A DNA stretch of 64,000 nucleotides from Chloroherpetonaceae bacterium (GTDB lineage Bacteria; Bacteroidota; Chlorobiia; Chlorobiales; Thermochlorobacteraceae): contig JANRJQ010000004.1 of the NCBI GenBank assembly GCA_033763895.1, forward strand, positions 186,001 to 250,000, given 5' to 3'. The translations under genes and the position numbers were made by a program. The notes under the pieces are model-generated. The model was not told the DNA's origin and ran no database searches. It was given only the letters and a program-made list of their open reading frames with translations. Numbering within the stretch: the first letter of the stretch is position 1; each line of letters starts with the position of its first letter. Of this stretch, positions 12,470 through 39,852 are shown one piece after another.

Positions 12470-13318
12470 ATGGCAGAGATCAAATCAACTGGCGCAGACG
12501 CAATCCGCGTTCTACCAACCGTTTTAGCATATCATTTCACATTGCCTCATACAATCGAATTCCTACCGGAAGTGTCGGAATCATTGGGCATGCAAGTTGA
12601 AATTAAAGATACAGGCAAAAATGCCTTCGAGCATTTTGGCGATTATATCAAAGGCGATTTGAAATATGAGCACATCGAAAACGATGAACATCGCAGAATG
12701 AATGATTGGCTTTCCACTTGGGTTCTTTTGAGCACAAGCTGGCCTTACATTCCCATTCTTGGGATTTATCGTGGCTTCAAATTAGGATCAGATTTTGTCA
12801 AGAATGGGGATGAGTCACAAAAATGGATGGCCGGTATTACATCATTGTTTCTGACTGCTCCCATTAATGTCTTTATGGGCATGTATGACGCATTTAACTT
12901 TACTTCCGCAAGATTAAGAGCCACAGGTACCGATAAAGCCTTTATGACTGCTTATGAAAATATTCCAAAAGTATTAGGCGCAGGGCTTTCAGAAGAAGAA
13001 AAGAAATATCCGGTTAATGCTTTTGTTGATGGCTCTACAAAAGCAGTTACCCAAGTCATGATGACACCGATGATGCCGTTAATGGCAACTTACCGTGTTA
13101 CCAATCTGATCGGAGACTTAACTCACAAAGACCGCCTTATGCAATTTGTCACAATGCTCTTTGGAGCACCGGTTCTGACAGTATTGGGTATGCCTTATTT
13201 TGCACTTGTTCAATCTGGGGATGTTGCCCGTAAAGTCGCCGCAGAATCGAATTTGTCAAATTGGCTTTCCAAATTCTTTGGCGATGCTGCAAACTCATTC
13301 AACGCGATGCGCAAATAA
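12470..13318 (+). CDS. Unrecognised 282-residue hydrophobic protein with four internal repeats
   Basis: I do not recognise this family. AAAGGGAG 7 bases before the ATG makes a strong start. After a polar N-terminal part (residues 1-80) there are four hydrophobic stretches, each with a Pro in the first half, a Tyr or Pro-Tyr about nine residues later and an acidic or Gly-Ser/Asp end: about 89-108 (WPYIPILGIYRGFKLGSD), 129-148 (APINVFMGMYDAF), 199-217 (TPMMPLMATYRVTNLIGD) and 233-251 (APVLTVLGMPYFALVQSGD). The pattern suggests an internally repeated membrane or membrane-peripheral fold. There is no signal peptide, cofactor motif or catalytic motif. It is monocistronic, between a candidate promoter with dyads and a strong terminator, which implies independently regulated and possibly high expression. 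Confidence 0.75.
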   Translation: MAEIKSTGADAIRVLPTVLAYHFTLPHTIEFLPEVSESLGMQVEIKDTGKNAFEHFGDYIKGDLKYEHIENDEHRRMNDWLSTWVLLSTSWPYIPILGIYRGFKLGSDFVKNGDESQKWMAGITSLFLTAPINVFMGMYDAFNFTSARLRATGTDKAFMTAYENIPKVLGAGLSEEEKKYPVNAFVDGSTKAVTQVMMTPMMPLMATYRVTNLIGDLTHKDRLMQFVTMLFGAPVLTVLGMPYFALVQSGDVARKVAAESNLSNWLSKFFGDAANSFNAMRK

Positions 13319-16910: not shown

Positions 16911-18866
16911 TTATCTAAAAAGCTGCGAGCTCTCGGTAAGCTTGAATTTTTGAACGGCTGATTGCAATTGCTCAGCTTGGTTAATCAGTTCTTGTGAGAG
17001 CTGCGTAATTTCATTGGCTGAGTTTTTCACACGCAATGATTCATTGGAAATTCCATCAACAGTTTTTGAAACTTTTTGCCCTGTAATTTTTTGAGATTGC
17101 ATTTGCTCCATCACTTGAGCTGTTCGCATCGACATATCGCTCGTTTTCATCGTAATCTGCTGAGTGCTTCTCATTTGAGCGTCCGCAAGCCCTGAAAGCC
17201 GACTCATAATGCTGCTTGAGCGGGAGTAGAATCCGGTAATCTTATCAAGTGTTTTTTCAGCATCACGAACTGTCGCTGCACTTTCTTGAATCGTAACATT
17301 GGTTTCCATAATTTCCGACTCCACTTTGCCCACATTTTGGCGAATATTGGTCACCAAATCTTGAACTTGAAGCGAATAACTCACAGACTGCTCTGCAAGG
17401 ATTCGAATTTCTTTCGCAACAACTCTAAATCCTTTTCCGGATTCTGGAATTGAAGACTCAATCGTGGCATTAACCGCCATAAGATTCATTTGCTTTGCAT
17501 TGCGAACAGCGGTATCTGAAATATTGGTTATTTCTCTTGAGGATTTTTCGATGGTTTGTATCTGCGTCGCTAAGCCCGCAAGCTTTTCCCCAATTCCATA
17601 AATTGACTGGGTGATTTGCTCGACGCCTAATTTACCCCCTTGCACTTCATGAATGACTTGGTTAAAAACCTGATTGGCGTCTTGTATACTTCGAGAAACC
17701 TCTTGTACAGAACTGGTTAAATCTTCAATAGAAGTTCTTGTTTCTCTAACATTAATTGTCAAGCCTTGGACGTCGTCAAGGACTGTTTCAATTGAGTTTC
17801 CGGTTTTAGCTAAAACTTGAACGGAATCACGAACGGTCGAGATTTGCCCGTCTGAGGTTTTCGAAATTCCGGTGGCTGTATTACTAATATCCAATGCGAT
17901 TTGGTTCAAGCGTTGCGTTAAATCAACAATATCCCGTACAGCCTCTTTGATACTATCTACCAAGGCGTTAAATGAATCAACAATTGAAGCAATATCATCT
18001 GAGGCGGTAAATGAGACTCGTTCGGATAAATTTCCTTCTGAGATGCGTTTCGTTGATTCAACAATTTTAAGAATTGGAAGTGTTACAGTACGGCGGATAA
18101 ATACAAAGGTGATGAGACCAACAAATAGCAAAACGAGAAAACCGCCACCGTAGGTAACCAAAATCGTTTCATTTTTGGCGGCATTAATGTCGTCTGCTGG
18201 GATAATCATCGAAAGTGCCCCTCTCAAATCCCCCGATCGATACCCGTATCCATTTTCATATCTTGCTTGGACATATTCCGGCGCGTCAATCTTACTACCG
18301 TGACAAGCGAGACATTGATTTTTAATAAATATTGGTTGAATGTATCGATAATAGGATTTTGAGCCGATGTTTGTTTTTTCCCAAATCGAGATTGAGTTCT
18401 CTGAGATACTATTGGCATTCCCTTGCCTTCGTGCCTCAGTTACTTTTTCGTCAAAAATTCTTAAAGCCGCTTCCTCAAATTGATCAGGTTTGTTTTGAGG
18501 ATTTCTTAAATTTAGTGAAGTTTGCTTAATAATATACTCTTGTCCAGCCTCTTGAACCACAAGTTCTTCCATTCCGGTTCTTGAGAGCGTGTCCTTTCCT
18601 CTTAAGGGTTTATAATGAATCATTGAAAGCACGCCAGAGGTCGAATCATTGAGAGGCAATCGACTTCTTAAGAAAATATTAGCATTGTGTTGCCAAGACC
18701 CTTGTAAGGTAGAAGCAATTTTTTCTGCTTTTAATTTAATTTCAGAATCAATTCTGCTATTTTGTCGAATATGTAAAACTACAGCGAACGAAACCACCGC
18801 AATAAATAAACTTACTCCAACAATAGCGACAATTTTTTTGTCGATGGTAGTCTTAAACTGGCTCAT
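16911..18866 (-). CDS. Methyl-accepting chemotaxis protein with DUF3365-type haem sensor
   Basis: The ATG at 18866 gives 651 residues; a TTG 17 codons upstream is possible but puts extra residues before the first helix. Order: helix 1 (about 12-32); periplasmic domain (about 45-228) of DUF3365/Tll0287 type with a c-haem motif CLACH at 185-189; helix 2 (about 236-257); HAMP (about 258-330); then a long coiled-coil signalling domain. The hairpin tip reads NLMAVNATIESS..GKGFRVVAKEIRILAEQS: the GKGF, VVA.E.R.LAEQS core of chemoreceptors is kept, but the usual NAAVEAARAGE is altered. It is likely a redox or gas-ligand receptor. It lies downstream of PatA/CheY/CheW-type genes, beyond a terminator. 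No CheA is visible. Confidence 0.88.
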   Translation of the reverse strand: MSQFKTTIDKKIVAIVGVSLFIAVVSFAVVLHIRQNSRIDSEIKLKAEKIASTLQGSWQHNANIFLRSRLPLNDSTSGVLSMIHYKPLRGKDTLSRTGMEELVVQEAGQEYIIKQTSLNLRNPQNKPDQFEEAALRIFDEKVTEARRQGNANSISENSISIWEKTNIGSKSYYRYIQPIFIKNQCLACHGSKIDAPEYVQARYENGYGYRSGDLRGALSMIIPADDINAAKNETILVTYGGGFLVLLFVGLITFVFIRRTVTLPILKIVESTKRISEGNLSERVSFTASDDIASIVDSFNALVDSIKEAVRDIVDLTQRLNQIALDISNTATGISKTSDGQISTVRDSVQVLAKTGNSIETVLDDVQGLTINVRETRTSIEDLTSSVQEVSRSIQDANQVFNQVIHEVQGGKLGVEQITQSIYGIGEKLAGLATQIQTIEKSSREITNISDTAVRNAKQMNLMAVNATIESSIPESGKGFRVVAKEIRILAEQSVSYSLQVQDLVTNIRQNVGKVESEIMETNVTIQESAATVRDAEKTLDKITGFYSRSSSIMSRLSGLADAQMRSTQQITMKTSDMSMRTAQVMEQMQSQKITGQKVSKTVDGISNESLRVKNSANEITQLSQELINQAEQLQSAVQKFKLTESSQLFR

Positions 18867-18925
18867 TTTAATATTCGTAATAGCCCTTAAGAAAAAGATT
18901 TTCAGATAATCATTCAATAATACAA

Positions 18926-18953
18926 TAAAAAGGGCGGCGAATGTTCACCGCCC
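18926..18953 (-). terminator. Intrinsic terminator after the 595-residue protein gene
   Basis: GGGCGG (18932-18937) pairs with CCGCCC (18948-18953) around a 10-base loop. On the - strand a run of five T follows. It separates the PatA-CheY-CheW-unknown gene block from the chemoreceptor gene, which must use read-through or its own promoter. Confidence 0.8.
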
Positions 18954-18976
18954 AATCTTCTTAATCAATCAAGAAA

Positions 18977-20764
18977 TTAACGGCGTGTTAATGACGGAAC
19001 CTTTTCAAATTTGTAACCTTGTGATTTCATTGCCTTTACGAGTTGTTCATTATCGCCTTCTAGTTTGGCTTTAACCTCGGCCAACGGCTTATTTGAAACA
19101 CCAATTTCAACGTTGAAATAATCAACAACTGATTTACAAAGCGATTCCAACTTTGCTTCGGCTTCTCCTTCAACAACAAGCCCTTGAGCAGTCTTGTCTT
19201 CGGGTGTGACGGAGTATCGGTATGAAAAATCAATGAAATTAAGGATATTCGGATTTTGGGTGCTTCTTACATCTGTTCCTTTATACCGAGTGATGTAATC
19301 TTCAACAATAAGGTTTGGCACTTTTGAAAGAATATCTTTATTAACAACTTCCAATATTCCCTTCGTGTATTCTAACCTTAAGGTAGATTTTCTGAAAGGA
19401 ACATCTGATTTCATTGCATCAAGCCTCTTTTGCCATAAATCGATGGTTTGTAAGAGTTTGCGTTGTCGGTCTTTAACCATAAATTCTCGCTTCTTATCGT
19501 CTTTTTCTTTGACTTCTTTTTCTTCTGGACGATCAAAACGATTTCTTAATTGGCCCATATCGGCTGCAAATCTTCGTTCAATAAACTTTTCAGCATAAGT
19601 TCCATCTTTTTTCTTAAGATTTAAGAGGAATTCGACGCCTTCCGCTTCAACCAAAGGTAGAGCTACTTTAATGTATCGACAAGCTTCATCCAAACGGCTG
19701 TTTTCAAGGTAGAAATTTGCAAGAGCAATTTGATACGGATAGTAATTCAAATCGCTGGAGAACATCATTAAAAGATAAAATTCTTTACGAACGGCATCTT
19801 TTTCTTTAGAAGCGCGATCTTTCCAATAAAAACTTTTTGCTGCTTTATCTTCTTGTCCCGGAACTTCAACTTTACTAAACAAACCAGTTTTGATATACCC
19901 TTTTGCACCATAACCGCCGTCACTCTGTACCAATTTATCTAGTACATTACGCATGTCATTGCGATATTTTTCTTGAGAAGCGAGGGCTTGTTGATCTAAA
20001 GCAGCATAAATATGCATAATCGCACTTAATTGGGCATTCACTTTTTCATCACCTTTGGAGCTTTTAATCTTCTCAAGATTTTCGTGAACAATTCTATAGT
20101 TTGATTCAAAAATAATTTCATCTTGGCGGCGTACAATTGCATCTGAACGGCGACCAATCCCTTGCTTAAAACGAATGTTTAGTGCAAGAGCAACCGTAAG
20201 CGCTTTGAAGTATTCTTTATTTCGATAGTACTGCTCGACTTCAAACATCTTCGCTTCTTCATCAATGGCTGTTTCCAATTCTTCATCGATTTGCAGAACA
20301 ATTTTATCACCATCTACTCTAAAAATATCATCGGTCGATTCACTAAATGCTTCGGAAATTGATCCTTCATCAGAAAGCACATCGCCAAGTACATCTTCAA
20401 GATCGAGACCTAAAAGATTATCAGTAGAACCTGAACTTGATGCCGGAGGTGGTGTTGATTTTGGTGCCGGTGTAGGCGGTTTAGGCACCGGAGCAGCGCT
20501 TGGAGTTGGGGTCGATTGACGCATTTGTTTAAATGTTGCAGCTATAGAATCCACCATTGCGCTATAGGCTTTAATTGTTTCCACGTCGGTCATTGAGGTA
20601 TTGTTTTGTGTAAACACATAACGACGCTCGCGCTCTAAGGCCTGAAAATGAGGGTTATCTTTGTTTAATTGCGCTGCGAGCTCAATTTCACTTGAGTGAT
20701 TCTTTAACTTTTGGACAAATTCACTTCGAATTGCCGCATCAGCCGGTGATCCTGTATTTGACAT
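18977..20764 (-). CDS. Unknown 595-residue protein in chemosensory operon
   Basis: I do not recognise the family. The N-terminal 80 residues are helical. Residues about 84-110 are a flexible Pro/Ala/Ser linker. About 113-135 is an acidic, leucine-rich patch (LLGLDLEDVLGDVLSDEG) that looks like a short docking motif. The remaining 440 residues are mostly helical with TPR-like spacing (YYRNKEYFKALTVALAL; YQIALANFYLENSRLDEAC) and a charged stretch near 415-440. There is no signal peptide or membrane helix, so it is cytoplasmic. It begins 28 bases after the CheW gene and ends at a terminator, so it belongs to the chemosensory operon. It may be a scaffold linking the array to an output. Confidence 0.75.
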   Translation of the reverse strand: MSNTGSPADAAIRSEFVQKLKNHSSEIELAAQLNKDNPHFQALERERRYVFTQNNTSMTDVETIKAYSAMVDSIAATFKQMRQSTPTPSAAPVPKPPTPAPKSTPPPASSSGSTDNLLGLDLEDVLGDVLSDEGSISEAFSESTDDIFRVDGDKIVLQIDEELETAIDEEAKMFEVEQYYRNKEYFKALTVALALNIRFKQGIGRRSDAIVRRQDEIIFESNYRIVHENLEKIKSSKGDEKVNAQLSAIMHIYAALDQQALASQEKYRNDMRNVLDKLVQSDGGYGAKGYIKTGLFSKVEVPGQEDKAAKSFYWKDRASKEKDAVRKEFYLLMMFSSDLNYYPYQIALANFYLENSRLDEACRYIKVALPLVEAEGVEFLLNLKKKDGTYAEKFIERRFAADMGQLRNRFDRPEEKEVKEKDDKKREFMVKDRQRKLLQTIDLWQKRLDAMKSDVPFRKSTLRLEYTKGILEVVNKDILSKVPNLIVEDYITRYKGTDVRSTQNPNILNFIDFSYRYSVTPEDKTAQGLVVEGEAEAKLESLCKSVVDYFNVEIGVSNKPLAEVKAKLEGDNEQLVKAMKSQGYKFEKVPSLTRR

Positions 20765-20792
20765 AAATATAGTTGGTTAAATAAAACAGTGT

Positions 20793-21395
20793 TTATAGGA
20801 ATTGGATAATTTCAGGTGCATTTAGAAGTTTATCAGTATCAATAATGATAATATCATTTCCACGGCCACCTTCTTCAGGTCTTGTAAAAATCCCTCTTGA
20901 AAAAAGTGATAATCGATACATTTCACTATCTGCCGCATTTATTCTTATTACATCGGTCTCTCCGACGCGAATGACATCAAGAACAGCATCGATAACAAAT
21001 CCAACGGAAAAATTAACATTTCCAACAATCAGCAGCCGTTCAGAACTTTTTTGACGACGGGTTTTTGGCTTTTTTGAGACATCTAGACCTAAGATAACCT
21101 GCAGATTTAATACCGAGGTAATTTCCCCACGGACATTACAAATACCAAGGACATACGGCGGCATTCCGGGTATCGGTGTAATTTTGGGAACATTCAAAAT
21201 GGCCTCAATATCATTTACCCTGAATGCAGTTTCTTTATCACCAACAAGAATACCGACAAACTGCTCTTTAGTATCGCCTTCATCGGTTTCAGATTCTGCT
21301 CTGAGCTTCGCCTCCTCAATCTCCTTCATCCTTTCAATGATTTCTGGAGGAATTGAGGTTAACGCGTCAAAACCTAAACCTTTTCTCTCATTCAT
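20793..21395 (-). CDS. CheW-like adaptor protein
   Basis: A 200-residue protein. After a charged N-terminal extension of about 45 residues comes a CheW/SH3-like double barrel: FVGILVGDKETAFRVNDIEAIL, then PIPGMPPYVLGICNVRGEI, the canonical motif that contacts chemoreceptors and CheA, then LLIVGNVNFSVGFVIDAVLDVIRV. GGAG sits about 8 bases before the ATG. CheW couples receptors to the CheA kinase. It sits between a CheY gene and the unknown 595-residue gene, in the order of a Pil/Chp-type group. The N-terminal extension is longer than in E. coli CheW. Confidence 0.9.
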   Translation of the reverse strand: MNERKGLGFDALTSIPPEIIERMKEIEEAKLRAESETDEGDTKEQFVGILVGDKETAFRVNDIEAILNVPKITPIPGMPPYVLGICNVRGEITSVLNLQVILGLDVSKKPKTRRQKSSERLLIVGNVNFSVGFVIDAVLDVIRVGETDVIRINAADSEMYRLSLFSRGIFTRPEEGGRGNDIIIIDTDKLLNAPEIIQFL

Positions 21396-21434
21396 GTAAG
21401 ACTCCGCCGGTTGTTACAATTGGGTGGATAGAAA

Positions 21435-21797
21435 TCAAGTCCCGGTTTTTTTTACCGCAGAAATAAGATCCGCTTCGTTAAATGGCTTAACAAGATACGC
21501 ATTCGCGCCTTGTTTCATTCCCCAAAATTTATCACTTTCTTGATCTTTTGATGTAATCATGATGACTGGAATGTTAGCCGTTTCAGGTGCCTTTTTAAGA
21601 TTACGACACACTTGAAAACCATCTCTTTTCGGCATCACAACATCAAGCACAATTAAATCCGGCTTGCTGATTCTTGCTTTGGTTTCGCCGTCTTCCCCGT
21701 CAACTGCTTCCTCTATTGAATATCCAAGGGAGGTGAGCACTTTGGCGATGATTGTTCGTTCAACAGCACTATCATCAATAATTAAAACCCTAGGCAT
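21435..21797 (-). CDS. CheY-like single-domain response regulator
   Basis: A 120-residue stand-alone receiver. The acidic pair is D8-D9 (VLIIDDSAVE), the phospho-acceptor D52 (LIVLDVVMPKRDG), the switch residues are MITSKD and K104 in YLVKPF. This is the PilH/CheY type, with the DVVMPKRDGFQ motif common to twitching and gliding regulators. It is encoded 47 bases after a PatA-like regulator and 39 bases before CheW. It probably receives phosphate from a CheA encoded elsewhere. Confidence 0.93.
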   Translation of the reverse strand: MPRVLIIDDSAVERTIIAKVLTSLGYSIEEAVDGEDGETKARISKPDLIVLDVVMPKRDGFQVCRNLKKAPETANIPVIMITSKDQESDKFWGMKQGANAYLVKPFNEADLISAVKKTGT

Positions 21798-21844
21798 AAA
21801 AGTTATTTCTTAAAAAATAAGTTAGAATATAAGAGCAAGTATAT

Positions 21845-22948
21845 TTAGTTGGTATTCTTCAAATATTTATGAACGATTTCGACAAGTTCACCATCCTTAA
21901 ATGGTTTGGTGACATAGTCATTTGCACCAGCGTGTAAACCCAAATTTCGGTCTATATCCGCATCTTTTGCCGAAAGCATGATGATTGGCGTTTGTTTCAT
22001 AGTCGCATGTTCGGTTCTGAGTGTTTTACAGACCTTCAGCCCAGTTGTATCAGGCAACATTACATCCAATAAAATCAAGTCTGGCTGCTGTTCAAGAGCT
22101 AATTTAATAGCAGCTTCGCCAGTCTCAGCGGTGAACAGACTATAACCGGTCTCAGCAAGTGCCAATTGAATGGTCTTTAAAATCACCTTACTATCGTCAA
22201 CCGCTAAAATCTTTTTTCTTGTATCTGCTTGTGCTTTCGGAAGTTCAACCCATTTGCCATCAAGAAGGGTTACTAATGCCTTCATGACCGTGACTTCTTC
22301 CATTTTCAGCTTCAGTGCCAAAGTCTTGATGTCAGTTTTGCCATCAATCGCTAAATATACTTGCCACTCGACAAGCTTCAGTGAAATTTCATTTTTTTCT
22401 TCTTTACCGCGCTTTGTGATGGCAGGAACTTGCCCTGAACTTTGAATTTTTTCTTTGACAAGCTCCATTTCATCAACCTTCGGTGCAACCAAGAGCATGA
22501 TTTGCTGAACATCCACCCCGTTGCTTAAACCTTGTACCCTTAACACGGCATCGGGTTCAAATTCAACACGGGCGTTTTTTTCTTGCAACAATTGAGTAAT
22601 CACGCTTTCGATTTGAAGCCTGATTGCTTTGACAAGTTTGGTGGCATCGACTTTCTTCATTGCCATCAAAATTTGTTCAATACGCTTATCCTTGTATTGT
22701 TTTTGGAGGGTAATTGCCTGATTGAGATCATCTCTGGTAATAAGATTTTCTTGCAATAAGATTGCCCCTAACTCTTCGCTTCCAGTATCAACAGCAATGA
22801 CAAGACCTCCTTTGAAGTGAACCACGGTGTCTTTATCGCCTAATGAGGTAGGAACCTGCACTTTCATCGCTCCCGTTTTTTTCGTTGTGCTTAGGAGCCT
22901 AAGCATATCGATTAGCGTCATTTTAACGCTACCTGTAAAACCGGACAT
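21845..22948 (-). CDS. PatA-type response regulator (DUF4388 plus receiver)
   Basis: A 367-residue protein with a strong ribosome site (GAGGAG) before the ATG. Residues about 1-110 are a DUF4388/PatA-N domain (GSVKMTLIDMLRLLSTTKKTGAMKV, then VVHFKGGLVIAVDTG). A middle helical part (about 115-235) has a winged-helix-like feel with DGKTDIKTLALKLKMEEVTVMKALVTLL. Residues about 243-365 form a receiver: acidic pair in ILAVDDSKV, phospho-acceptor in LILLDVMLPD, K in YVTKPF. In cyanobacteria PatA-type regulators head pil/pix chemosensory operons that control pili and phototaxis. Here it is likewise first in the gene order. Confidence 0.88.
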   Translation of the reverse strand: MSGFTGSVKMTLIDMLRLLSTTKKTGAMKVQVPTSLGDKDTVVHFKGGLVIAVDTGSEELGAILLQENLITRDDLNQAITLQKQYKDKRIEQILMAMKKVDATKLVKAIRLQIESVITQLLQEKNARVEFEPDAVLRVQGLSNGVDVQQIMLLVAPKVDEMELVKEKIQSSGQVPAITKRGKEEKNEISLKLVEWQVYLAIDGKTDIKTLALKLKMEEVTVMKALVTLLDGKWVELPKAQADTRKKILAVDDSKVILKTIQLALAETGYSLFTAETGEAAIKLALEQQPDLILLDVMLPDTTGLKVCKTLRTEHATMKQTPIIMLSAKDADIDRNLGLHAGANDYVTKPFKDGELVEIVHKYLKNTN

Positions 22949-23163
22949 TGAGTTCTCCTCGTTAAATCTTTATTGTGCGTCTTCGAAATTCTCAAAATGA
23001 CGCGCAAAACTTGCATTTGGTAAAAATTCTAAGCCAAACCCTTGGCAAGTTAATTCAAAAAAAACTTGAAATGACTTGGAATAATAAGGATGTGACAAAA
23101 GTTTTTCAATATAACACTATGAAAAAAAAATCAAAATGACATTCATTCGTTTCAAGAGTGCAA

Positions 23164-27894: not shown

Positions 27895-29643
27895 CTATAC
27901 TTTACTTGCCTTTTTAAGTTTTTTCCCATTTCCATTCTTACCGTTTGATTCTTCGTGATGATCACCGCTATTGGGATTAAAGGTGATTAACCCATCTTTA
28001 TCCATCAATACACGGTCATAATCATAAGGACCAAAAATTTGATGCGGGGTTCCTTCAAAGTTATGTGGATGCGGTGGCGATGTTGTCATCCATTCCATTG
28101 TCAATCCATACCACGGATTTTTTGGTGCTTGTGGTCCTTTGAAAATTGAATGAATAAGGTAAACCGCCATAATGATAAATCCTACGCCTAAAATCCAAGT
28201 TCCAACGGTTGAAATCATGTGTAGCGAATGATATTGCTCTAAATAGGTATAGTATCTGCGAGGCATCCCTTGCAAACCCATCAAAAACTGAGGGAAGAAT
28301 GTCACATTGAAGCCAATAAAAATCAGGGCAGCAGAAACCAAAGCAGCTGTTTCGTTATACATCCGTCCCCAGATTTTTGGCCACCAGTAATGAAGCCCGC
28401 CAAGGAATGCGATAACTGTTCCACCCATCATCACATAATGAAAATGAGCAACAACAAAATAGGTATCGTGTAAGTGAATGTCCACTGAAAGTGCACCTAG
28501 ATAAATTCCTGTTAATCCTCCAATCGTGAAAAGGCAAAGAAATGCGTGGGTGTAAAGCATTGGCGCTTGAAAAGTAAGTGACCCACGGTACATTGTTGCA
28601 ACCCAATTAAAAATCTTAATTCCAGAAGGAATTCCGACCAAAAAGGTTAGAAATGAAAAAATAAATGCCGCGAGTTCAGATTGACCACTTGTGAACATGT
28701 GATGTCCCCAAACAAGAAAACTGACAAGTGCGATAGCAAGGCTCGAAAACGCGATGGGTGTGTATCCAAATATTCTTTTATGAGAAAAAGTTGCAATAAG
28801 TTCGGAGATAATTGCCATACCGGGCAAAATCATGATATACACGGCTGGATGAGAATAAAACCAAAAGAAGTGTTGGTACAGCACCGGATCTCCACCCATA
28901 GCAGGGTCAAAAATGCCGATTCCGAACGCTCGTTCTAGAATGAGGAGTAACATCGTAATTCCAAGTACCGGTGTCGCCATTACTTGAATAATTGAGGTGG
29001 CATACATTCCCCAAACAAATAAAGGCATACTAAACCAAGTCATTCCCGGAGCCCGAAGTTTATGCACTGTGACAATGAAGTTCAGCCCAGTGAAAATCGA
29101 CGAAAAACCCATAATAAAAACACCAAGCGTGATTGAGATGACAGAGGTTTTACTTTCAACACTATAAGGAGTATAGAAAGTCCATCCTGTATCAACCGCA
29201 CCTGTCACAAGTGAATAAATTGCGAACAAAGCACCAACTACATAAACATAGAAGCTTGCTAAATTCAATCTTGGGAAAGCCACGTCTTTCGCGCCAATCA
29301 TCAACGGTAGCACAAAATTTCCTAACGCGGCCGGAATCGCAGGAATAATAAATAAGAAAACCATTATCGCCCCGTGAAGCGTAAACAGTTGGTTGTAGGA
29401 ATCTGGTCCAACGATATCTTTACCGGGATTAATGAGTTCAAAGCGCAAAAGAATCGCAAATACGCCCGCAACAAAAAAGAAAAACATGACTGAAAAGAGG
29501 TACATCAATCCGATTCTTTTATGGTCAACCGTAGAGAGCCAAGACCACAACCCTTGAGGTGAATTTAGATAATGTACCGACGGAGCGGACGATTGGCCTG
29601 TGTTTGCCACAGGACTTGATGGAGTTTCAACTAAAGCTGCCAT
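27895..29643 (-). CDS. coxA: Cytochrome c oxidase subunit I, A2-type caa3
   Basis: A 582-residue haem-copper oxidase core subunit with 12 helices. Residues seen: the first haem a ligand in [12 protein letters not shown]; CuB and cross-linked Tyr region [23 protein letters not shown] with the two CuB His; [14 protein letters not shown] with the haem a3 and a ligands. The helix VI motif is YSHP.VY without the Glu of A1 enzymes, as in the A2 enzymes of Thermus and Rhodothermus. It reduces O2 to water and pumps protons. GAGGT precedes the ATG. It is the last gene of the operon; the tail after residue about 545 is hydrophilic and Lys-rich. Confidence 0.96.
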
Positions 29644-29668
29644 TTTTTACCTCGTTAAATTGAAGTGG

Positions 29669-30601
29669 TTACTGAATAGTTTTCATATAAGCAATAATCG
29701 CATCGATTTGCTTTTGCTTTAAGATTCCTTGATAAGTAGGCATTACCGGTTGGTAGCCGGCAACGACTTTAGCATTAGGTTCGAGCATTGACTCTCTGAG
29801 ATAGTTTTCATCTGCAAGCACTTCACTTCCATCGGCAAGTTTATGTTTTTTTCCATATGCACCCTTCCAAGTTGGGCCGGTATTTGCAGTTCCATCAACG
29901 CTATGACAAGTTACACAAGCCTTTGAGATGTAGAGTTTTTTTCCAAACTCTTCAGGTTTCATTGACCCGCCACCTTCTGCCTCTTCAAGCCACTTGTTGT
30001 ATTCTGTTTCACTTACAACTCGAATTTTTCCGATCATTTCAGAGTGGCTCTTTCCACAGTATTCTGTACAAAAAATGTCAAAAGTTCCTGCTTGAGTGGG
30101 TGTCGCGGTCAAAATGCTATAACGATTTGGAACAGCATCCATTTTTACTCGGAATGCCGGAACATAAAAACTGTGAATGACATCTTCAGATGAAATTAAA
30201 AATTTCAACGGTTTTCCTTGAGGTACCACCAATTCATTGACACTATTTGCACCGTTCGGGTAATCAAATGCCCAAAACCATTTTTTTCCCAAAACCCGAA
30301 TTTCGAGTGCGTCTTTAGGGACAACATTCATGTCTAAGTATGAGCGGAACCCCCAAAAGAAAATTAAGAAAACAAGCAGGGTTGGAATTAATGTCCAGAT
30401 TATTTCAAGTCTCGTGTTATGAGAGATACCCGACGTGTATTCAGGTCTTTCATTCTTTCGTCTATAAATCCAGAGATAATAGACCGAGACGATGGTAACC
30501 AATAAAAAAAGCCACGCTGATGCGTTGGTTATAAATATGATGAGACTGTCAATATCAGACGCGATGGTCGAGGCTTGTTCAGGTAAGTATGAACTTTTCA
30601 T
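29669..30601 (-). CDS. coxB: Cytochrome c oxidase subunit II with fused cytochrome c
   Basis: The ATG at 30601 is preferred over a TTG nine codons upstream. 310 residues. Two helices (about 20-45 and 65-90) anchor a cupredoxin domain whose CuA ligands are visible: HSFYVPAFRVKMD and CTEYCGKSHSEM. A cytochrome c domain follows after a Gly-rich linker, with haem motif CVTCH and probable axial Met in PVMPTYQG. This fusion defines caa3 oxidases, which take electrons directly from a donor such as ACIII. It lies 36 bases after sco. Confidence 0.95.
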   Translation of the reverse strand: MKSSYLPEQASTIASDIDSLIIFITNASAWLFLLVTIVSVYYLWIYRRKNERPEYTSGISHNTRLEIIWTLIPTLLVFLIFFWGFRSYLDMNVVPKDALEIRVLGKKWFWAFDYPNGANSVNELVVPQGKPLKFLISSEDVIHSFYVPAFRVKMDAVPNRYSILTATPTQAGTFDIFCTEYCGKSHSEMIGKIRVVSETEYNKWLEEAEGGGSMKPEEFGKKLYISKACVTCHSVDGTANTGPTWKGAYGKKHKLADGSEVLADENYLRESMLEPNAKVVAGYQPVMPTYQGILKQKQIDAIIAYMKTIQ

Positions 30602-30637
30602 AAAACAAATTTGAAAAAATTCTTTCAAAAATAATTC

Positions 30638-31480
30638 TTAATTCAATGTTAAATCGACGGGTGGTTTTCCCTTCTTTTCATGTTTGCGGCTTTCTTTTAC
30701 CCAAAAAGTACTGAGCACCACGCCCATAATCACTATTGTGAGCAAGCCGCCTACTTTCATAATGTTTATAGCAAATGGAACATAGCTATTCAATTTCGGA
30801 TCGTAGTGAAAACATGAAAGAATAATTCGATCCATCGTTGTCCCTATTTTTCCTGAACTTGCTTCAATCAATGCCAGCTTAAGATCAAATTGTCGATAAT
30901 TAATCCCGTACAAATAACGGGTAATTTTCCCTTCTGGGGAGATTAAAAATGCAACAGCCGGATGCGCATATTCATTTCGTTTTGTATCGAAGTAATAAAT
31001 AAAACCAACTGACTCTGCAAGTGATCTTGACATTTCTGACCTGCCCACTAAGAAGTGCCAACCCTCTTCTACACCCGGTCTTCCAAAAGCTTCTTTGTAT
31101 CCGTTTTTCTTTGCCATTGCAAGTTCTGGTGTTTCGCTCGGGTCTATACTGACGGTTATAATTCTATAATCAACTCCAAGGTCTAAGTCCAATTGTTTGG
31201 CACTGCCACAGACACCGTTTTGTACCAAGTTGCAAAGCATCGGACACTTGTAGTAACCAAGGGTCAAGAGTACTGGTTTTCCATCCAGAAAATAATCTTG
31301 TAACTGAACGGCTTTCCCAGTTTCATCTATAAAAGTAAGGTGAAAAGGGATTATATCCCCTAATTTTTCAACTACATCAATTCCCTTTAATTCTGTTGGT
31401 GAATCTAAAATCTGTTGAGAAAAAAGAACATTACATTTCAAAATCAAACCAAAAACAAACACAACTTTCACGAACCACAT
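30638..31480 (-). CDS. sco: SCO1/SenC copper chaperone for the CuA site
   Basis: The ATG at 31480 has an excellent ribosome site (GGAGGTG); the protein is 280 residues. It has a signal peptide, then a thioredoxin-like fold with the copper-binding pair in YYKCPMLCNLV and the third ligand His in EYAHPAVAFLI. A C-terminal membrane helix (about residues 240-262, MKVGGLLTIVIMGVVL) and a basic tail make it a C-anchored Sco, as found in ACIII-caa3 operons. Its job is to load copper into CoxB, encoded next. Confidence 0.92.
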   Translation of the reverse strand: MWFVKVVFVFGLILKCNVLFSQQILDSPTELKGIDVVEKLGDIIPFHLTFIDETGKAVQLQDYFLDGKPVLLTLGYYKCPMLCNLVQNGVCGSAKQLDLDLGVDYRIITVSIDPSETPELAMAKKNGYKEAFGRPGVEEGWHFLVGRSEMSRSLAESVGFIYYFDTKRNEYAHPAVAFLISPEGKITRYLYGINYRQFDLKLALIEASSGKIGTTMDRIILSCFHYDPKLNSYVPFAINIMKVGGLLTIVIMGVVLSTFWVKESRKHEKKGKPPVDLTLN

Positions 31481-31514
31481 TTTCACCTCCTTCACATAGA
31501 GCATTTAACTCAAA

Positions 31515-32012
31515 CTACTTCTTAATCGCTTTAGCTCTCTTCGAATTACTTTGCAATTGAGCGGCAGGTTTTTCATCTTTTGTTGGAGTGTCTGTATTCG
31601 CCGGGGGTTGAATTTGCTGCTGATTCAATTTGGCCACTTTAGCTTCCTCAGCCATTTTTTGCATTGCTTCAGAAACGGGCATTCTATAGATTTGTTTATT
31701 GATATCAACGATTCCATAAGAATTAATGACCCCATCCTCTTTTGACTTCACATCTCGAAGCAAGGTTGATTCCGGAATTAAGGTACTTGAAACATACTTC
31801 TCTTCCCGTTGCACCTTAAAAAATTCTGCTAAAAAAAACATAATCACTGCAATAACAACAGTTCCGACCACAATACTCGTAATAATTGCTCTTGGGTTGA
31901 TATCCGATTTTTCATAATCATTTTCAGGACTCTGATATAACTCCATTGGTTTGGATAATTCAATTGAGGGTTGATTTTTTGCCTCCTGTTGCATTAACAC
32001 ATCATTTTGCAT
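31515..32012 (-). CDS. Small single-helix protein of the ACIII-oxidase operon
   Basis: 165 residues: a polar cytoplasmic N-terminus, one helix (about 43-66), then a periplasmic part. The conserved-looking segment NSYGIVDINKQIYRMPVSEAM recalls a short motif (SYGWVD...RIPI..AM) in small proteins found between actF and sco in other ACIII operons. The last 40 residues are low complexity (Gln, Pro, Lys). It is probably an accessory or assembly subunit of the supercomplex; no cofactor motif is seen. Confidence 0.75.
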   Translation of the reverse strand: MQNDVLMQQEAKNQPSIELSKPMELYQSPENDYEKSDINPRAIITSIVVGTVVIAVIMFFLAEFFKVQREEKYVSSTLIPESTLLRDVKSKEDGVINSYGIVDINKQIYRMPVSEAMQKMAEEAKVAKLNQQQIQPPANTDTPTKDEKPAAQLQSNSKRAKAIKK

Positions 32013-32023
32013 AACCTAAAGAA

Positions 32024-33223
32024 TTAATGATTGACAAATTGCATTGAATTTTCCAATTTTGGATCGCGAATTGGAACAATCGGATTACTGGTTAAGCGAT
32101 ACCAGAAAAACCATAGGAAGAGCCCCCCAATACCAGCAGTACTTGAAAGGTGAAGCCAAGAAAAGTGTAGCCCGTGATGCGCGTCTGGATTTGCAATGGT
32201 AACATTCGGCATAATGAGCCAGTAGTAATCTACCCATTGCATAAAAACAAACCAAAATCCCATTATAGCCATTACATACAAATTTCTTTTCGATGACCTA
32301 AAGATCAAAATAAAAAAAGGAAGGACGAAATGTCCGAAAAAAAGAAGCATCGAAACATACTCCCATCCATATTCCCATCGATGTTTGTAGAAAATGGTCT
32401 CTTCCGGAATATTTCCATACCAAATAAGCATAAATTGCGAAAATGCGATGTACGCCCAAAAAACGGTAAACCCAAACATCAGTTTTCCGATATCATGATA
32501 GTGCTCGGTGGTCATCGCTTTTCCTAGCGCACTGTTCTTGCGCAAATATTGTGAGAATAAATTCAGAAACGCGAGTGTTAACCACCAACTGCCGGCAAAA
32601 AAGTAAACACCGAAAATCGTTGAATACCAATGCGGATCGAGAGACATTAGAAAATCAAAGGCTGCGAAAGTAATTGAAAGCGCAAAAAATATGATTCCGG
32701 GTGCACTGAGTTTTCTCATTTTCCGAAGCACTGTTTCGTCTCCAGCATCTTGTTTAAGTGAATGGCGATTTAGCGTTAACGCTAAGTATGACCATAAACC
32801 GAAGTAAACAATAGCACGGATAAGAAAAAATGTGATGTTTAACCAGCCTGACTTATGTTGAAGAAGTTCATCCTTGGCAACTTGCTCGGCATGAGACCAA
32901 TGGTATAAATCATGAATACCAAAAGCAATTGGAATAAAGAGAATACCCATTAATGGAATCGTCATCGCTAAAGATTCAGCGATTCGCCTCAACACAACGC
33001 TCCATTCTGCTCCAGTAATGTGATGAAGCATCGTAAAAAACAGTCCGCCTAAAGCTATTGATAACCAAAAAACATATCCAACGAGATAGGCAAAAAAGAA
33101 ATTATCTCTTGGAGTTAGAAAAAAACCTGCTACCAACGAAATTAGTCCGACCAATCCCACAATTAGGGCATTGCGTCCAAAATTAAGATTTTTAGCATTG
33201 AGTTTGAACTCATCTCTGCTCAT
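32024..33223 (-). CDS. actF: Alternative complex III, membrane subunit ActF
   Basis: A 399-residue protein with ten predicted helices and no cofactor motif. It has the position and length of ActF, a relative of the NrfD/ActC family. Stretches such as MLHHITGAEWSVVLRRIAES and MGFWFVFMQWVDYYWLIMP are typical. It probably contributes to the quinol site or proton path of the menaquinol:cytochrome c oxidoreductase. AAGGAG precedes the ATG. It follows actE by 9 bases. Confidence 0.9.
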   Translation of the reverse strand: MSRDEFKLNAKNLNFGRNALIVGLVGLISLVAGFFLTPRDNFFFAYLVGYVFWLSIALGGLFFTMLHHITGAEWSVVLRRIAESLAMTIPLMGILFIPIAFGIHDLYHWSHAEQVAKDELLQHKSGWLNITFFLIRAIVYFGLWSYLALTLNRHSLKQDAGDETVLRKMRKLSAPGIIFFALSITFAAFDFLMSLDPHWYSTIFGVYFFAGSWWLTLAFLNLFSQYLRKNSALGKAMTTEHYHDIGKLMFGFTVFWAYIAFSQFMLIWYGNIPEETIFYKHRWEYGWEYVSMLLFFGHFVLPFFILIFRSSKRNLYVMAIMGFWFVFMQWVDYYWLIMPNVTIANPDAHHGLHFSWLHLSSTAGIGGLFLWFFWYRLTSNPIVPIRDPKLENSMQFVNH

Positions 33224-33232
33224 GATTACTCC

Positions 33233-33898
33233 TTACTGATTTGAAAGTTCAAGTCGTTTCCCTTCAGGCAAATCCGTTAATGTTGCTGATTGACTTCTTT
33301 GAAGTGCACGAACATAGAGTACAATCGCCCATCGGTCTGAAACTGAAATTTGATGTTTATAGGATGGCATATTTCGAATTCCATTCGAAATAACGTTATA
33401 AATATGGCCATCAGGGGATGTTTTTATTCTTGAATCATGAAGTGAGGTAGGTGGCAAATAGCCGTGCTCAACAACCAAGCCATTGATTTGCCGACCCGCA
33501 TTGTCTTTCGCACCACCGGTTCTGCTATGACAAGGTGCACAATAAATGTTATAACGCTCCTGACCACGTTGAAGCGTTGTCAAAGTGATTTCAACCGGTG
33601 CTGTGACAATCGTATCTCCGCTTGGGGTTTTACCAGTATAATAAACGGTATTTTCTCTCAACTCACCCTGTGCTACTGTTCCCGCGACTGGTGTTCTCAT
33701 CGCTAAACCATCCGCAAAAAATTCACTTTTTCGTTGTGCTTTGTACTTCGGTTGTGTCATCATATTGGTCTGATAGACAATAGGTGGCTCATCGAAGGGC
33801 AAACCTCTTACACAACCGCTTAAACCAACTGCAACAAAAACGACTAGTAGTAAAACCGAAACCCTTCGAGATAGGCTTTGTTTAAATTTCTGATTCAT
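33233..33898 (-). CDS. actE: Alternative complex III, monohaem cytochrome c lipoprotein ActE
   Basis: 221 residues. The signal ends in a lipobox (GLSGC), so the protein is lipid-anchored on the periplasmic side. One c-haem motif CAPCH near residue 120 and a likely axial Met in IRNMPSYKHQ. The start overlaps the actD stop as ATGA with GGAGGT upstream, so translation is coupled. ActE carries electrons from the ActA/ActB module towards the oxidase cytochrome domain. Confidence 0.92.
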   Translation of the reverse strand: MNQKFKQSLSRRVSVLLLVVFVAVGLSGCVRGLPFDEPPIVYQTNMMTQPKYKAQRKSEFFADGLAMRTPVAGTVAQGELRENTVYYTGKTPSGDTIVTAPVEITLTTLQRGQERYNIYCAPCHSRTGGAKDNAGRQINGLVVEHGYLPPTSLHDSRIKTSPDGHIYNVISNGIRNMPSYKHQISVSDRWAIVLYVRALQRSQSATLTDLPEGKRLELSNQ

Positions 33899-34569
33899 TT
33901 AGAAACCTCCGCTAATTTTTCATCAATTTCTTCTTCTTCTATCGGGCGATGCATTAGTTCAACTTTTCCGGAACCTAATGCTTTGAAAAAATCACTTGTT
34001 TCTTTGGGATGAAATTTTTCGTCCCAAGCGAAAACGCAAGCAAAAAAGCCATTATCGCCTGCTCTTTTGCTGAATGATTCGGCATAATATGCAGGGTGAA
34101 AAAAACGTGGCATCCTATTAAGTGCAAACATTCCAAAAACAGCCCCAAAAGCTGAAAGGAGAACCGTAAATTCAAATAAAACAGGAATAAATGCGGGCAA
34201 ACTAAAAAATGGTTTGCCAGAAGTATTCATTGGATAATCAACCGCACTCGTCCACCACATCATCAGTAAACCCAACGATAAACCAGTTAAACCACAGGCA
34301 AAAACAATTTTACCAAGCGGAGATTGACCAAGACCCATTGCATCATCCATTCCGTGGATTGGAAAAGGAGAATAAACCTCAAAACGCTTATAACCGGCTT
34401 TTCTTATTTCCTCTGCCGCTCTAATTAGTTCGGCGGGATTTGAAAATTCAGCCATCACACCTTCAGCTTCTTCTTCCACCAAAATTTGCTTTGCCTCAAG
34501 ACGTGCTTTTTCAGCACCAATTTTTAAGTCGTTTGATTGACGATTATAATCCGTTTCGTGTAATGACAT
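33895..34569 (-). CDS. actD: Alternative complex III, subunit ActD (DUF3341)
   Basis: The ATG at 34569 has GGAGGT 8 bases upstream; an ATG five codons earlier would swallow that site. 224 residues: a cytoplasmic N-terminal domain with AEEIRKAGYKRFEVYSPFPIHGMDDAMGL, the DUF3341 signature, then two helices (about 90-115 and 125-150) and a C-terminal soluble part. ActD holds the membrane subunits together in the known ACIII structures. It begins 1 base after the actC stop. Confidence 0.92.
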   Translation of the reverse strand: MSLHETDYNRQSNDLKIGAEKARLEAKQILVEEEAEGVMAEFSNPAELIRAAEEIRKAGYKRFEVYSPFPIHGMDDAMGLGQSPLGKIVFACGLTGLSLGLLMMWWTSAVDYPMNTSGKPFFSLPAFIPVLFEFTVLLSAFGAVFGMFALNRMPRFFHPAYYAESFSKRAGDNGFFACVFAWDEKFHPKETSDFFKALGSGKVELMHRPIEEEEIDEKLAEVSK

Positions 34570-34570
34570 A

Positions 34571-36052
34571 TTAATGACCTCCATTCTTGGTTACTAATTC
34601 GGGAGTTGGTGCTTCATGTTTTTCTTCATGATGATGGGCATGCCCATTATGACCATTGTGAGGATAGGCATGAGGGTCTGCTTCGGGTAAAACCCCTTTG
34701 ATTTCAGCAATAGCAACCATCGGCATATATCTCAAAAAAAGCAAAAAGAGCATCATAAAAAGACCAATCGAACCTACATAACAAGCAATATCGAATATCG
34801 TTGGGGTATAGTACTTCCAACTTGATGGAAGATAATCTTGCGAAAGCGAGGTTACTGTAATTACAAATCGTTCAAACCACATTCCGATGTTTACAAATAT
34901 CGATGCCACAAAACTGACGGCTACGTTGGTTCTCATTTTCTCAAACCAAAAAATTTGAGGGACAACCACATTGCAGAAAATCATTGACCAATATGCCCAC
35001 GCATAAGGCCCTGTTGCACGAAGAATAAATGTGGTTGATTCGTAACCATTGCCACTATACCACGCAACAAAAAACTCACATCCATACGCATATCCAACCA
35101 TCATCCCTGTGACAAGAATAACCCGATTCATATAATCGAAATGGCGTAGGGTGATAATATTTCCAATTTTCGGATAAACAAGTATAGCCATAACAGCAAG
35201 CGTAATAACCATCGCAAAACCGGAAAAAATGGCACCGGCAACGAAGTAAGGCGGGAAAATGGTTGTATGCCATCCCGGAATTACCGATGTGGCAAAGTCA
35301 AATGAAACGATAGTGTGGACTGAAAGCACGAGAGGTGTTGAAAGAGCGGCCAAAATCAGGTAAGCGCGTTCGTAATGACGCCATTGCCGATTTCCACCAC
35401 GCCAACCAAGAGCGAAAAAGCCAAGAAGATATTTGCGAATTCCTGCCTTAGCACGATCTCTCATTGTTGCTAAATCAGGAATAAGACCGACATACCAAAA
35501 CAATATGGAAACCGTCAAATAGGTTGAAATTGCAAACACATCCCACTCAAGAGGTGAACGGAAATTCGGCCACATTGCCATTTGATTCGGTAATGGTAAA
35601 AACCAGTGTATTAACCAAGGGCGACCCATATGAATCACAGGAAACATACCAGCACAAATAACCGCGAAGATGGTCATCGCTTCGGAAAAACGGTTAATCG
35701 ATGTTCGCCATTTTTGTCTAAAAAGAAAAAGCACTGCTGAAATCAAGGTTCCAGCATGACCGATACCAACCCACCAAACGAAGTTCGTAATATCCCAAGC
35801 CCACCCAACAGTTGTATTGTTACCCCAAATTCCAATCCCTTTGGTTACCAAATACCCAATCACAACAAAGTACATGATTGCAAGAGACGCTGAGATGAAA
35901 AAGGCGATGTACCAAGCAACAGGAGGTCGCTTTTCTGTAACTTCGCAAACATCTTGCGTCAGACTTTGAAATGTCGGATTTCCTAAAACCAACGGGTTTT
36001 TATGAATCCCACTTTTTGTTTCATCGATAAAGTCTGGTGATAATACTGCCAT
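34571..36052 (-). CDS. actC: Alternative complex III, NrfD-like quinol subunit ActC
   Basis: The ATG at 36052 is preferred to a TTG five codons upstream. 493 residues with ten helices of the NrfD/PsrC family. [21 protein letters not shown] is the strongly conserved family segment that contributes to the quinol pocket. [17 protein letters not shown] and [18 protein letters not shown] are also typical. The C-terminus is His-rich ([13 protein letters not shown]). It oxidises menaquinol and passes electrons to the ActB iron-sulfur clusters. Confidence 0.94.
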
Positions 36053-36075
36053 ATTTTTCTCACTCAATAAATAAA

Positions 36076-36243
36076 TTAAAATTCATCTTTTATCTCACGG
36101 TCTTCTGGCTTGCGCACTTCGCGTTTTTCTCGCCCTGAAGCACCGCTTTCATGCATTTTTTTAAACTCTAAGAAAGTAAAAACTGCGCCTCCAAGTATGA
36201 GCATTGTAATGACTCCCCCAAGTACAATAATGATATTATCCAT
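36076..36243 (-). CDS. 55-residue single-helix membrane protein in the ACIII operon
   Basis: A short frame starting at ATG 36243 and ending 23 bases before actC. It encodes one hydrophobic helix (residues about 3-25, [19 protein letters not shown]) and a charged tail rich in Arg, Glu and Lys. It fills the gap between two tightly packed genes on the same strand, with usual operon spacing on both sides, and its codons show no stops or oddities. Similar-sized single-helix proteins occur as accessory subunits of respiratory complexes. No homologue is recognised, so function is unknown. Confidence 0.6.
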
Positions 36244-36258
36244 CGTGCATCCGAGGGT

Positions 36259-36540
36259 TTAATTGTTATTTGGTGTTGACCTTGTAAACAAACTTCTGAA
36301 ATACAATGCAAGCGCAATATTACCTGCCACCCAAACCGATACTAATGTTCCAATTTTAGGGTTATTTGCTACAAACCATAGGTAATTCGCTAATGCAAAT
36401 GATAGCACAACTGCTGAAAGAAAGAAGTAATCAAATGGCCGAATACTTCCGCTTACTGCATCCTTAAATGCCAAAAAGGCGCCGTAAGCAATCAAAAGAA
36501 ACACAAAGGACCCTACGCTTAAAATCAATGTTGCTTCCAT
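36259..36540 (-). CDS. Small membrane protein, paralogue 2
   Basis: 93 residues with about three helices. From residue about 37 it matches the preceding small gene: FDYFFLSAVVLSFALANYL against YDYLFLLATLVSFLLANYL, and VSVWVAGNIALALYFRSL against VSLWVPTNLVLGIYFRNI. It has an extra N-terminal helix (about 7-27). Its start overlaps the stop of the paralogue by 1 base, so translation is coupled. No cofactor residues. It is probably a small structural subunit or assembly factor for ACIII or the oxidase. Confidence 0.75.
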   Translation of the reverse strand: MEATLILSVGSFVFLLIAYGAFLAFKDAVSGSIRPFDYFFLSAVVLSFALANYLWFVANNPKIGTLVSVWVAGNIALALYFRSLFTRSTPNNN

Positions 36541-36728
36541 TATTTTCCGCTGTTTTGTGGTTTCGTTGTCGCAATATTTCTAAAGTATATCCCCAATACA
36601 AGATTTGTCGGCACCCAAAGACTCACAAAAAAAGCTTCATCTGTTTTGCCGGTTAACAATAGATAATTTGCCAGTAAAAACGAGACGAGAGTCGCGAGTA
36701 AAAAAAGGTAATCGTACTTTTTTATCAT
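36540..36728 (-). CDS. Small membrane protein, paralogue 1
   Basis: 62 residues with two helices (about 7-24 and 33-50). It is homologous along most of its length to the next gene. It starts 11 bases after the actB stop. The conserved features between the two are an aromatic-Asp-Tyr entry, SF.LANYL, a polar loop and a VWV..N...YFR exit. Its place between actB and actC in a tight operon argues for a role with ACIII. I do not recognise a named family. Confidence 0.72.
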   Translation of the reverse strand: MIKKYDYLFLLATLVSFLLANYLLLTGKTDEAFFVSLWVPTNLVLGIYFRNIATTKPQNSGK

Positions 36729-36739
36729 ACTGAAATAAG

Positions 36740-39700: not shown

Positions 39701-39814
39701 CTTAAACTCGGGCGTATCTGCATATTGCTCTAAACTTCGCCAATATTTTTTCTTAGGGGATGAGGTTTCGTCCAGTTCGTTTAGTAATTCTCTTAATTCT
39801 GGAATTCGCTTCAT
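36740..39814 (-). CDS. actB: Alternative complex III, fused molybdopterin-like/iron-sulfur subunit ActB
   Basis: 1024 residues. Near residue 57 is a twin-arginine signal placed unusually far in (SRRKFLSIMGASIALAGLASC), as is normal for ActB, with a lipobox cysteine at its end. The middle (about 100-730) is a molybdopterin-oxidoreductase fold that in ActB lacks the cofactor. The C-terminal part has four ferredoxin clusters: CTGCNACAIAC, CQHCENAPCESVC, CVGTRYCANNC, and CTYC with CQQAC. It passes electrons from quinol at ActC towards the haems of ActA and ActE. 38 bases separate it from actA. Confidence 0.95.
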   Translation of the reverse strand: MKRIPELRELLNELDETSSPKKKYWRSLEQYADTPEFKEYLASEFPDGISDLKDPISRRKFLSIMGASIALAGLASCRRPVEKIVPYVKPPEEITPGIAQQYATVMPFGLTAYGLLVTSHEGRPTKIEGNKYHPSSLGGTNFFMQAEILSLYDPDRSQKILKNGNESSWAEFSDYWSNQSISFRSTQGEGLILVAMPFSSPTMARLLSEFKSIYPKAKIISYEAVCDENSLEGLKLATGSLEPLQPVYSLRQAKVILSLDSDFCQKESESVSLSRGFIDGRRVESQNDEMNRLYVVESSFSITGGMADHRLKLRPSEIGAFTAALILELTKQGLSIPISEALSSYSSHSFDQKWISSLAKDLLANKGNSVVIAGREQNKLVHALTAAINIALENNGKTVKYIPIADALTPECSGLEELSTLIESGKVETVLLFGTNPAYDAPQNLRLKELLKKVNHTVHCGYYNDETASISKWHLPIAHFLEMWGDARSADGTLGIIQPLIEPLYGSKTTVELLNFFTKVELRSGYELVRDTWKSKFPEDFENQWRRTLHDGILQNSSLMPLAVAAANENLTAALQAQSLRPIDASASSLEISFKPSTTLYDGRYSNNAWLQELPDPVTKITWDNAALISEKTAQDLGIRTVYSLSDYQKREMIRISFQGEELDIPVWVTPGHADNTITLSLGYGRSEVGRVSEGVGFNSYLLRRSDALNFGYGAKVTKLGSTYLLASTQHEGDMHDRPVVIESTLDDYRKNPSFVEEAQIKAPKVQLWEKPYKHDEGYQWGMVIDLNACTGCNACAIACQSENNIPVVGKEQVSRTRQMHWIRIDRYFSGDVENPQMVTQPVGCQHCENAPCESVCPVAATVHDEEGLNSMVYNRCVGTRYCANNCPYKVRRFNYFNYATDSQVWGGEMPELVKMAQNPEVTVRFRGVMEKCTYCTQRIETAKINAKNNARSLVDGEVVTACQQACPTQAIVFGNINDATSKVAQLKQLNREYKMLAEINVKPRTSYLAKLRNPNPELEKATV

Positions 39815-39852
39815 ACTACTTGATAACTGATGGAATTTTTATTTAATATTTT

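Follow-up and report, generated by a model that had tools for sequence, protein, structure and literature searches.

In Myxococcus, the Frz chemosensory system acts on MglA/MglB via the response regulator RomR, and an earlier survey found that intact MglA/MglB/RomR sets were always accompanied by type IV pili (PMC3441718). Some mglA genes have PATAN genes in their vicinity, and a Group 1 MglA occurs in Chlorobi (PMC4316618). The combination of a PATAN-receiver regulator, CheY, CheW and a receptor follows a logic common to the Synechocystis tax1 set (PMC5812497). On the sensory side, DUF3365 has been renamed sCache_heme; CxxCH is conserved in 99% of this family, a HAMP-linked example without an axial Cys acts as a nitric oxide (NO)-type sensor, and the stand-alone form appears redox-like (PMC12889525). 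We analyzed a stretch of 64,000 nucleotides (the window; positions 186,001 to 250,000 of contig JANRJQ010000004.1) from a Chloroherpetonaceae bacterium (GCA_033763895.1), which carries a chemosensory block of five open reading frames (ORFs), all on the minus strand at 16911-22948 and, as listed, separated by gaps of 28-59 bp:

21845..22948, minus strand: PATAN (DUF4388)-receiver protein of 367 aa, a candidate regulator of the output (Pfam)
21435..21797, minus strand: CheY-like single receiver, 120 aa, receiver domain only (Pfam)
20793..21395, minus strand: CheW, the sole stand-alone CheW found in the genome (Pfam)
18977..20764, minus strand: p595, a 595-aa protein without Pfam match
16911..18866, minus strand: chemoreceptor with a transmembrane segment, a periplasmic Tll0287-like/sCache_heme domain, a second transmembrane segment, HAMP and the signalling domain of a methyl-accepting chemotaxis protein (MCP) (Pfam); readable from TTG 18917

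We consider it fairly probable that this block is the receptor and adaptor input arm of one methylation-free, Frz-like pathway, which has a single CheA and feeds MglA polarity for gliding. The block would probably decide when a gliding cell reverses, rather than drive a flagellum or a pilus.

With Frz of Myxococcus xanthus, the set shares a CheA-receiver hybrid, CheW and a receptor and, as proposed here, MglA with roadblock proteins as the output that controls the direction of surface motility. It differs from Frz in having PATAN regulators in place of RomR and FrzZ (no search for RomR, FrzX or FrzZ was made), a receiver and a roadblock domain fused in one protein, a haem receptor and p595, and in lacking CheR and CheB in its own family as well as a type IV pilus ATPase. 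The cyanobacterial Pix/Tax systems have the same order of PATAN-receiver, CheY, CheW and receptor, both they and Pseudomonas Pil-Chp have a hybrid CheA, and the Synechococcus control likewise gave no CheR or CheB in our searches. In contrast to the present set, Pix/Tax and Pil-Chp have type IV pili as their output, the ATPases of which are absent here, whereas p595 is inserted, CheA is unlinked and MglA is present in the set described here.

Conservation of the block and its haem-type receptor

The p595 sequence was used as a query against 198 genomes of the phylum, and a number of named genomes were scanned separately. Ten of the 198 genomes were positive, and all ten had the order PATAN-receiver, CheY, CheW, p595, receptor between differing flanking genes. 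The named-genome scan recovered several of these ten, Bacteroidetes metagenome-assembled genomes among them, and added five genomes with the same order (Candidatus Thermochlorobacter aerophilum, one Chloroherpetonaceae and other Chlorobiales), for a total of 15 distinct genomes. Wherever it could be judged (14/14 genomes), the p595 gene was followed by the receptor gene. An order shared by 15 distinct genomes whose flanking genes differ is not due to chance, nor does it reflect a recent duplication, as p595 of the most distant lineage is down to 33-35% identity. The five-gene block is a real unit, conserved in relatives of the green sulfur bacteria. Its ORFs and domains are as an earlier note on this DNA had described them, and the same genomes bear out the comparison made there with the cyanobacterial gene order, with one extra gene before the receptor. 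Asp295 and the remaining receiver residues of the PATAN-receiver protein are invariant across 10 relatives, as are Asp8, Asp9, Asp52 and Lys104 of the window CheY in its relatives.

Three elements of the receptor gene matter for its putative function:

18300..18314, minus strand: CLACH c-type haem motif, residues 202-206
18615..18617, minus strand: His101 (668-aa numbering), predicted distal haem ligand, kept in 13/14 receptors
17430..17471, minus strand: signalling hairpin tip NATIESSIPESGKG, in which the usual Arg is missing and which has one residue fewer than in relatives

The sensor domain matches PF11845 (DUF3365/Tll0287-like) with an E-value of 1.2e-27 and contains CxxCH in the form CLACH, which agrees with the haem-type sensor proposed in the earlier note. 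Translation from ATG 18866 gives a receptor of 651 aa and from TTG 18917 one of 668 aa; the former is probably the start, because the alignment of relatives begins there. Apart from the CxxCH pair there are no cysteines, and hence no axial Cys, and the sensor has two conserved His columns, the CxxCH His and His101. Both CxxCH and His101 are present in 13 of the 14 receptors, with sensor-domain identity as low as 15-17%. The remaining one, a Chloroherpetonaceae receptor (L022:5226-7130, minus strand), has lost both, while the rest of the receptor and its domain as well as the operon are kept. Because His101 was lost together with CxxCH in this single haem-less relative, it is probably the distal ligand of what is probably a c-type haem sCache domain. 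The likeness to described sCache_heme sensors (GSU0582/GSU0935, Tll0287) lies in CxxCH within a periplasmic Cache-type domain, in the fusion to HAMP and MCP and in the missing axial Cys, as in the HAMP-linked NO-binding type; the co-lost second His is a difference, which suggests bis-His ligation. The stimulus would be NO or redox state, with O2 less likely. A loss of haem binding, with a small ligand sensed instead as in other Cache domains, is quite improbable for this receptor: the haem-less relative with its otherwise intact receptor and operon speaks for it, whereas the persistence of CxxCH and His101 in the other 13 receptors even at the lowest identities, the PF11845 match and the near-universal CxxCH of the family speak against it. 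The same relative is a natural haem-loss variant, and the receptor set lets the residues that make DUF3365 a haem sensor be tested.

The tip Arg is missing in all relatives too, which have ESAIAGE or ESALAGQ where EAARAGE is usual, and the extra one-residue loss is found only in the window copy. The altered tip may change the geometry of the receptor array.

Two putative expression signals accompany the block:

18932..18953, minus strand: terminator-like hairpin, 9-bp stem followed by TTTTT, between p595 and the receptor gene
23081..23109, minus strand: promoter-like match 5' of the block, TTGAAA-17-TATTAT, weak, as shuffled sequences give such matches as often

Stable hairpins of unrelated sequence, some of them T-tailed, occupy the same p595/receptor site in six other Chlorobiales loci (L020, L021, L022, L029, L030, L034), and none was found in this gap in the distant lineage. 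The hairpin suggests lower or separate expression of the receptor, and hairpins at this site may set receptor dosage.

Elsewhere in the window, at 27895-40506, lie genes for COX1, ActD, NrfD-type, Fe-S/molybdopterin and multihaem cytochrome proteins (alternative complex III and a haem-copper oxidase). This cluster indicates aerobic respiration and agrees with an aerobic or microaerobic way of life, for which a haem sensor of this kind would be useful.

The single CheA and the MglA/roadblock module

The earlier note had reported no CheA and advised a genome search for a hybrid one. The window contains none, whereas a single one, of 2137 aa, was found elsewhere in the genome, which has two CheW domains and two MCPs in all. 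The relevant genes outside the block are:

C4:704528-710941: hybrid CheA, 2137 aa, with two Hpt domains, HATPase, CheW and receiver in one protein
C4:710995-713634: second receptor, with a classical tip and an sCache_3_3 sensor, adjoining CheA; the genome's only other receptor
C4:841266-842438: receiver-PATAN-roadblock regulator
C4:842536-843608: roadblock/MglB-like protein and MglA GTPase

Given that the genome has a single CheA, the block must use that CheA or have no kinase. Both Hpt domains of CheA bear HTLKGSA; the approximately 1190 N-terminal residues before the first Hpt are without Pfam matches (L005:1529-7942, minus strand). CheA lies about 0.5 Mb from the block. The gene that follows it is unrelated, and the output genes, three in number, stand together at C4:841-844 kb, about 0.13 Mb past CheA, so that block, CheA and output genes occupy three places on one 959-kb contig.

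In eight of nine relatives, CheA was read directly beside the receiver-PATAN-roadblock regulator, the roadblock/MglB-like protein and the MglA GTPase. Except in G079, the relatives' CheA cluster also carries two CheWs, a pair that was not found in the window's genome. In the ninth relative (G011), CheA is cut off by the end of its contig, and MglA is on another contig with a CheB. The window organism's own GTPase matches solved MglA structures with an E-value of 2.9e-67 and has the TVPGQ signature, the MglA form in which Thr replaces Asp (for the Thr78 feature, see PMC3000849). The C-terminus of the receiver-PATAN protein matches Robl_LC7 (Pfam) in 7/9 members, better evidence than a profile comparison with roadblock proteins, which was in register but weak (E 0.17); the MglB-like protein of the relatives is over the Robl_LC7 cut-off.

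p595 and MglA occur in exactly the same 10 of the 198 phylum genomes, which span eight genera and three families, and the listed genomes of family f3 (of the same taxonomic order; they look like Chlorobiaceae) have neither. Pairwise distances agree among p595, the haem receptor, CheW, CheA, the second receptor and the receiver-PATAN protein (Spearman 0.84-0.97), a result that fits co-inheritance and, just as well, plain vertical descent. New here are that MglA is linked to p595 and the present chemosensory set, and that pilus ATPases are absent. Only the two f2 genomes have a further MglA-like GTPase, with 45-47% identity (G005:C1:463718-464296; G087:C63:17952-18524).

As the earlier note had it for the window, CheR and CheB are missing: none was found in the four genomes of the organism's own family. 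The distant lineage has CheR, a separate Hpt and CheB inside its CheA cluster. A CheB-CheR hybrid of about 1370 aa is the only CheB/CheR of the two f2 genomes and lies at a distance from their chemosensory loci (G005:C1:1957940; G087:C59:22729).

Output and competing readings

The earlier note had expected surface motility or pili as output rather than flagella. FliF was absent from 12/12 genomes in a search that was positive in flagellated controls, and a flagellar output was rejected on this ground; the case of a CheA combined with flagellar genes, named there as refuting, did not arise. Plain flagellar chemotaxis with its other genes elsewhere has the CheA/CheW/CheY/MCP set in its favour, but lacks both FliF and CheR/CheB, and its probability is negligible at the search sensitivity used. 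Surface motility stays likely, and it is the pilus option that lost support: no PilB/PilT/GspE-type (T2SSE-family) ATPase was found in the organism's own and five related Chlorobiales genomes, whereas the controls were positive in 14/14 cases, and a type IV pilus output is therefore not supported. Control of type IV pili by a pathway of Pil/Chp or cyanobacterial Pix type, which would account for the gene logic shared with Synechocystis tax1 (PMC5812497), for a hybrid CheA with Hpt and receiver and for the T2SSE ATPase present in the distant lineage, is accordingly very improbable and, for Chlorobiales, nearly refuted. Polarity control through MglA and roadblock proteins is, with moderate confidence, what the evidence favours in its place.

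Chloroherpeton thalassium glides and flexes, and Chlorobiaceae are non-motile (PMC9318685). SprA of the type IX secretion system was present in 10/10 block-positive genomes and in 0/2 f3 genomes, and a literature search returned nothing on Chloroherpeton with type IX secretion and gliding. To our knowledge, it has not been worked out how Chloroherpeton and its relatives glide and pick their direction.

In the pathway that we favour, the periplasmic c-type haem sCache domain would sense NO or redox state, and the receptor would act via the genome's sole stand-alone CheW on the single hybrid CheA, which the second, classical receptor beside it would also feed. CheA would phosphorylate the window CheY, perhaps a phosphate sink, as well as the window PATAN-receiver and the receiver-PATAN-roadblock regulator encoded with the MglB-like protein and MglA. 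The output would be the GTP/GDP polarity state of MglA, which would set gliding direction or reversal frequency, and p595 may be a scaffold that links the receptor/CheW cluster or the PATAN-receiver to the MglA module. A more specific version, in which a haem-gated, methylation-free pathway has the receiver-PATAN-roadblock protein act directly on MglA and p595 couple the receptor cluster, with gliding that uses neither pili nor flagella, is put forward tentatively, as possible rather than probable.

Several observations weigh against the MglA-directed pathway. Block, CheA and MglA are non-adjacent in the window's genome, and the CheA cluster of the relatives has its own CheWs, so that a side-input role of the block is possible. 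With an E-value of 0.0012, the organism's own roadblock protein does not reach the Pfam cut-off, though it aligns with the relatives' copies. The co-occurrence of p595 and MglA is strong but confounded by descent, as there are about two lineages, and shared descent could explain it. Gliding of the window organism is something that we infer rather than observe, and SprA alone was found, with no gliding motor identified: GldM (PF12081) was detected in 0/12 genomes, with a model for which none of the controls gave an informative positive, so that, despite the presence of SprA, there is no demonstration of a standard GldLM motor.

Two partly separate pathways, in which CheA alone is shared and the PATAN-receiver of the haem block carries its signal to a different target (type IX secretion, surface polysaccharide and gene expression being examples), are unlikely. 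The block and the MglA locus were never adjacent in the genomes examined, there are two distinct PATAN regulators (PATAN-receiver and receiver-PATAN-roadblock) and SprA was in every block-positive genome tested, all of which would suit such a separation; the one CheA, the position of this genome's single stand-alone CheW within the block and the identical phyletic distribution of p595 and MglA argue for a common pathway. A common, MglA-directed pathway would have a near-complete parts list, namely two receptors, one CheA, CheW, three receiver proteins, roadblock, MglA and p595. Because these parts occur in a genome in which neither pilus ATPases nor flagella nor methylation enzymes were detected, the question of gliding and its direction becomes testable, and the present set uncouples the control of MglA polarity from type IV pili.

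p595 and further window features

p595 gave no Pfam, NCBIfam or PDB sequence-profile match and no Foldseek match at E <= 0.001, and by these searches it is a sequence orphan. In the AlphaFold model, a helical bundle at the N-terminus is joined by a disordered linker to a C-terminal domain that is modelled with confidence and is helical almost throughout. The linker contains one conserved element:

20369..20416, minus strand: short segment LLGLDLEDVLGDVLSD in the p595 disordered linker, candidate docking peptide, with low pLDDT around it

Within this segment, L118, G119, L120 and D121 are invariant in 10 relatives. Foldseek matches to folds of tetratricopeptide repeat (TPR)/HAT type were weak (E 0.04 and above), and TPR sequence hits were isolated, weak and confined to single members; the C-terminal fold is predicted to be a helical repeat, weakly TPR-like. 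A relationship to roadblock proteins was considered and rejected, since the comparison showed no relation.

SgmX is a TPR protein and an effector of MglA-GTP in Myxococcus (PMC7519303). By analogy, p595 may be a scaffold or an MglA effector and a possible functional analogue of SgmX, being a putative helical-repeat cytoplasmic protein with MglA always in the genome; the likeness is one of description, as p595 shows no sequence match to known families and SgmX itself was not compared. SgmX differs in acting on pili, whereas p595 is encoded with CheW and a receptor.

Two further genes of the window were recorded: a histidine kinase with many N-terminal TPR repeats at 53732-55720 (minus strand), and a 282-aa ORF without Pfam match at 12470-13318 (plus strand), which follows the DNA polymerase III alpha gene.

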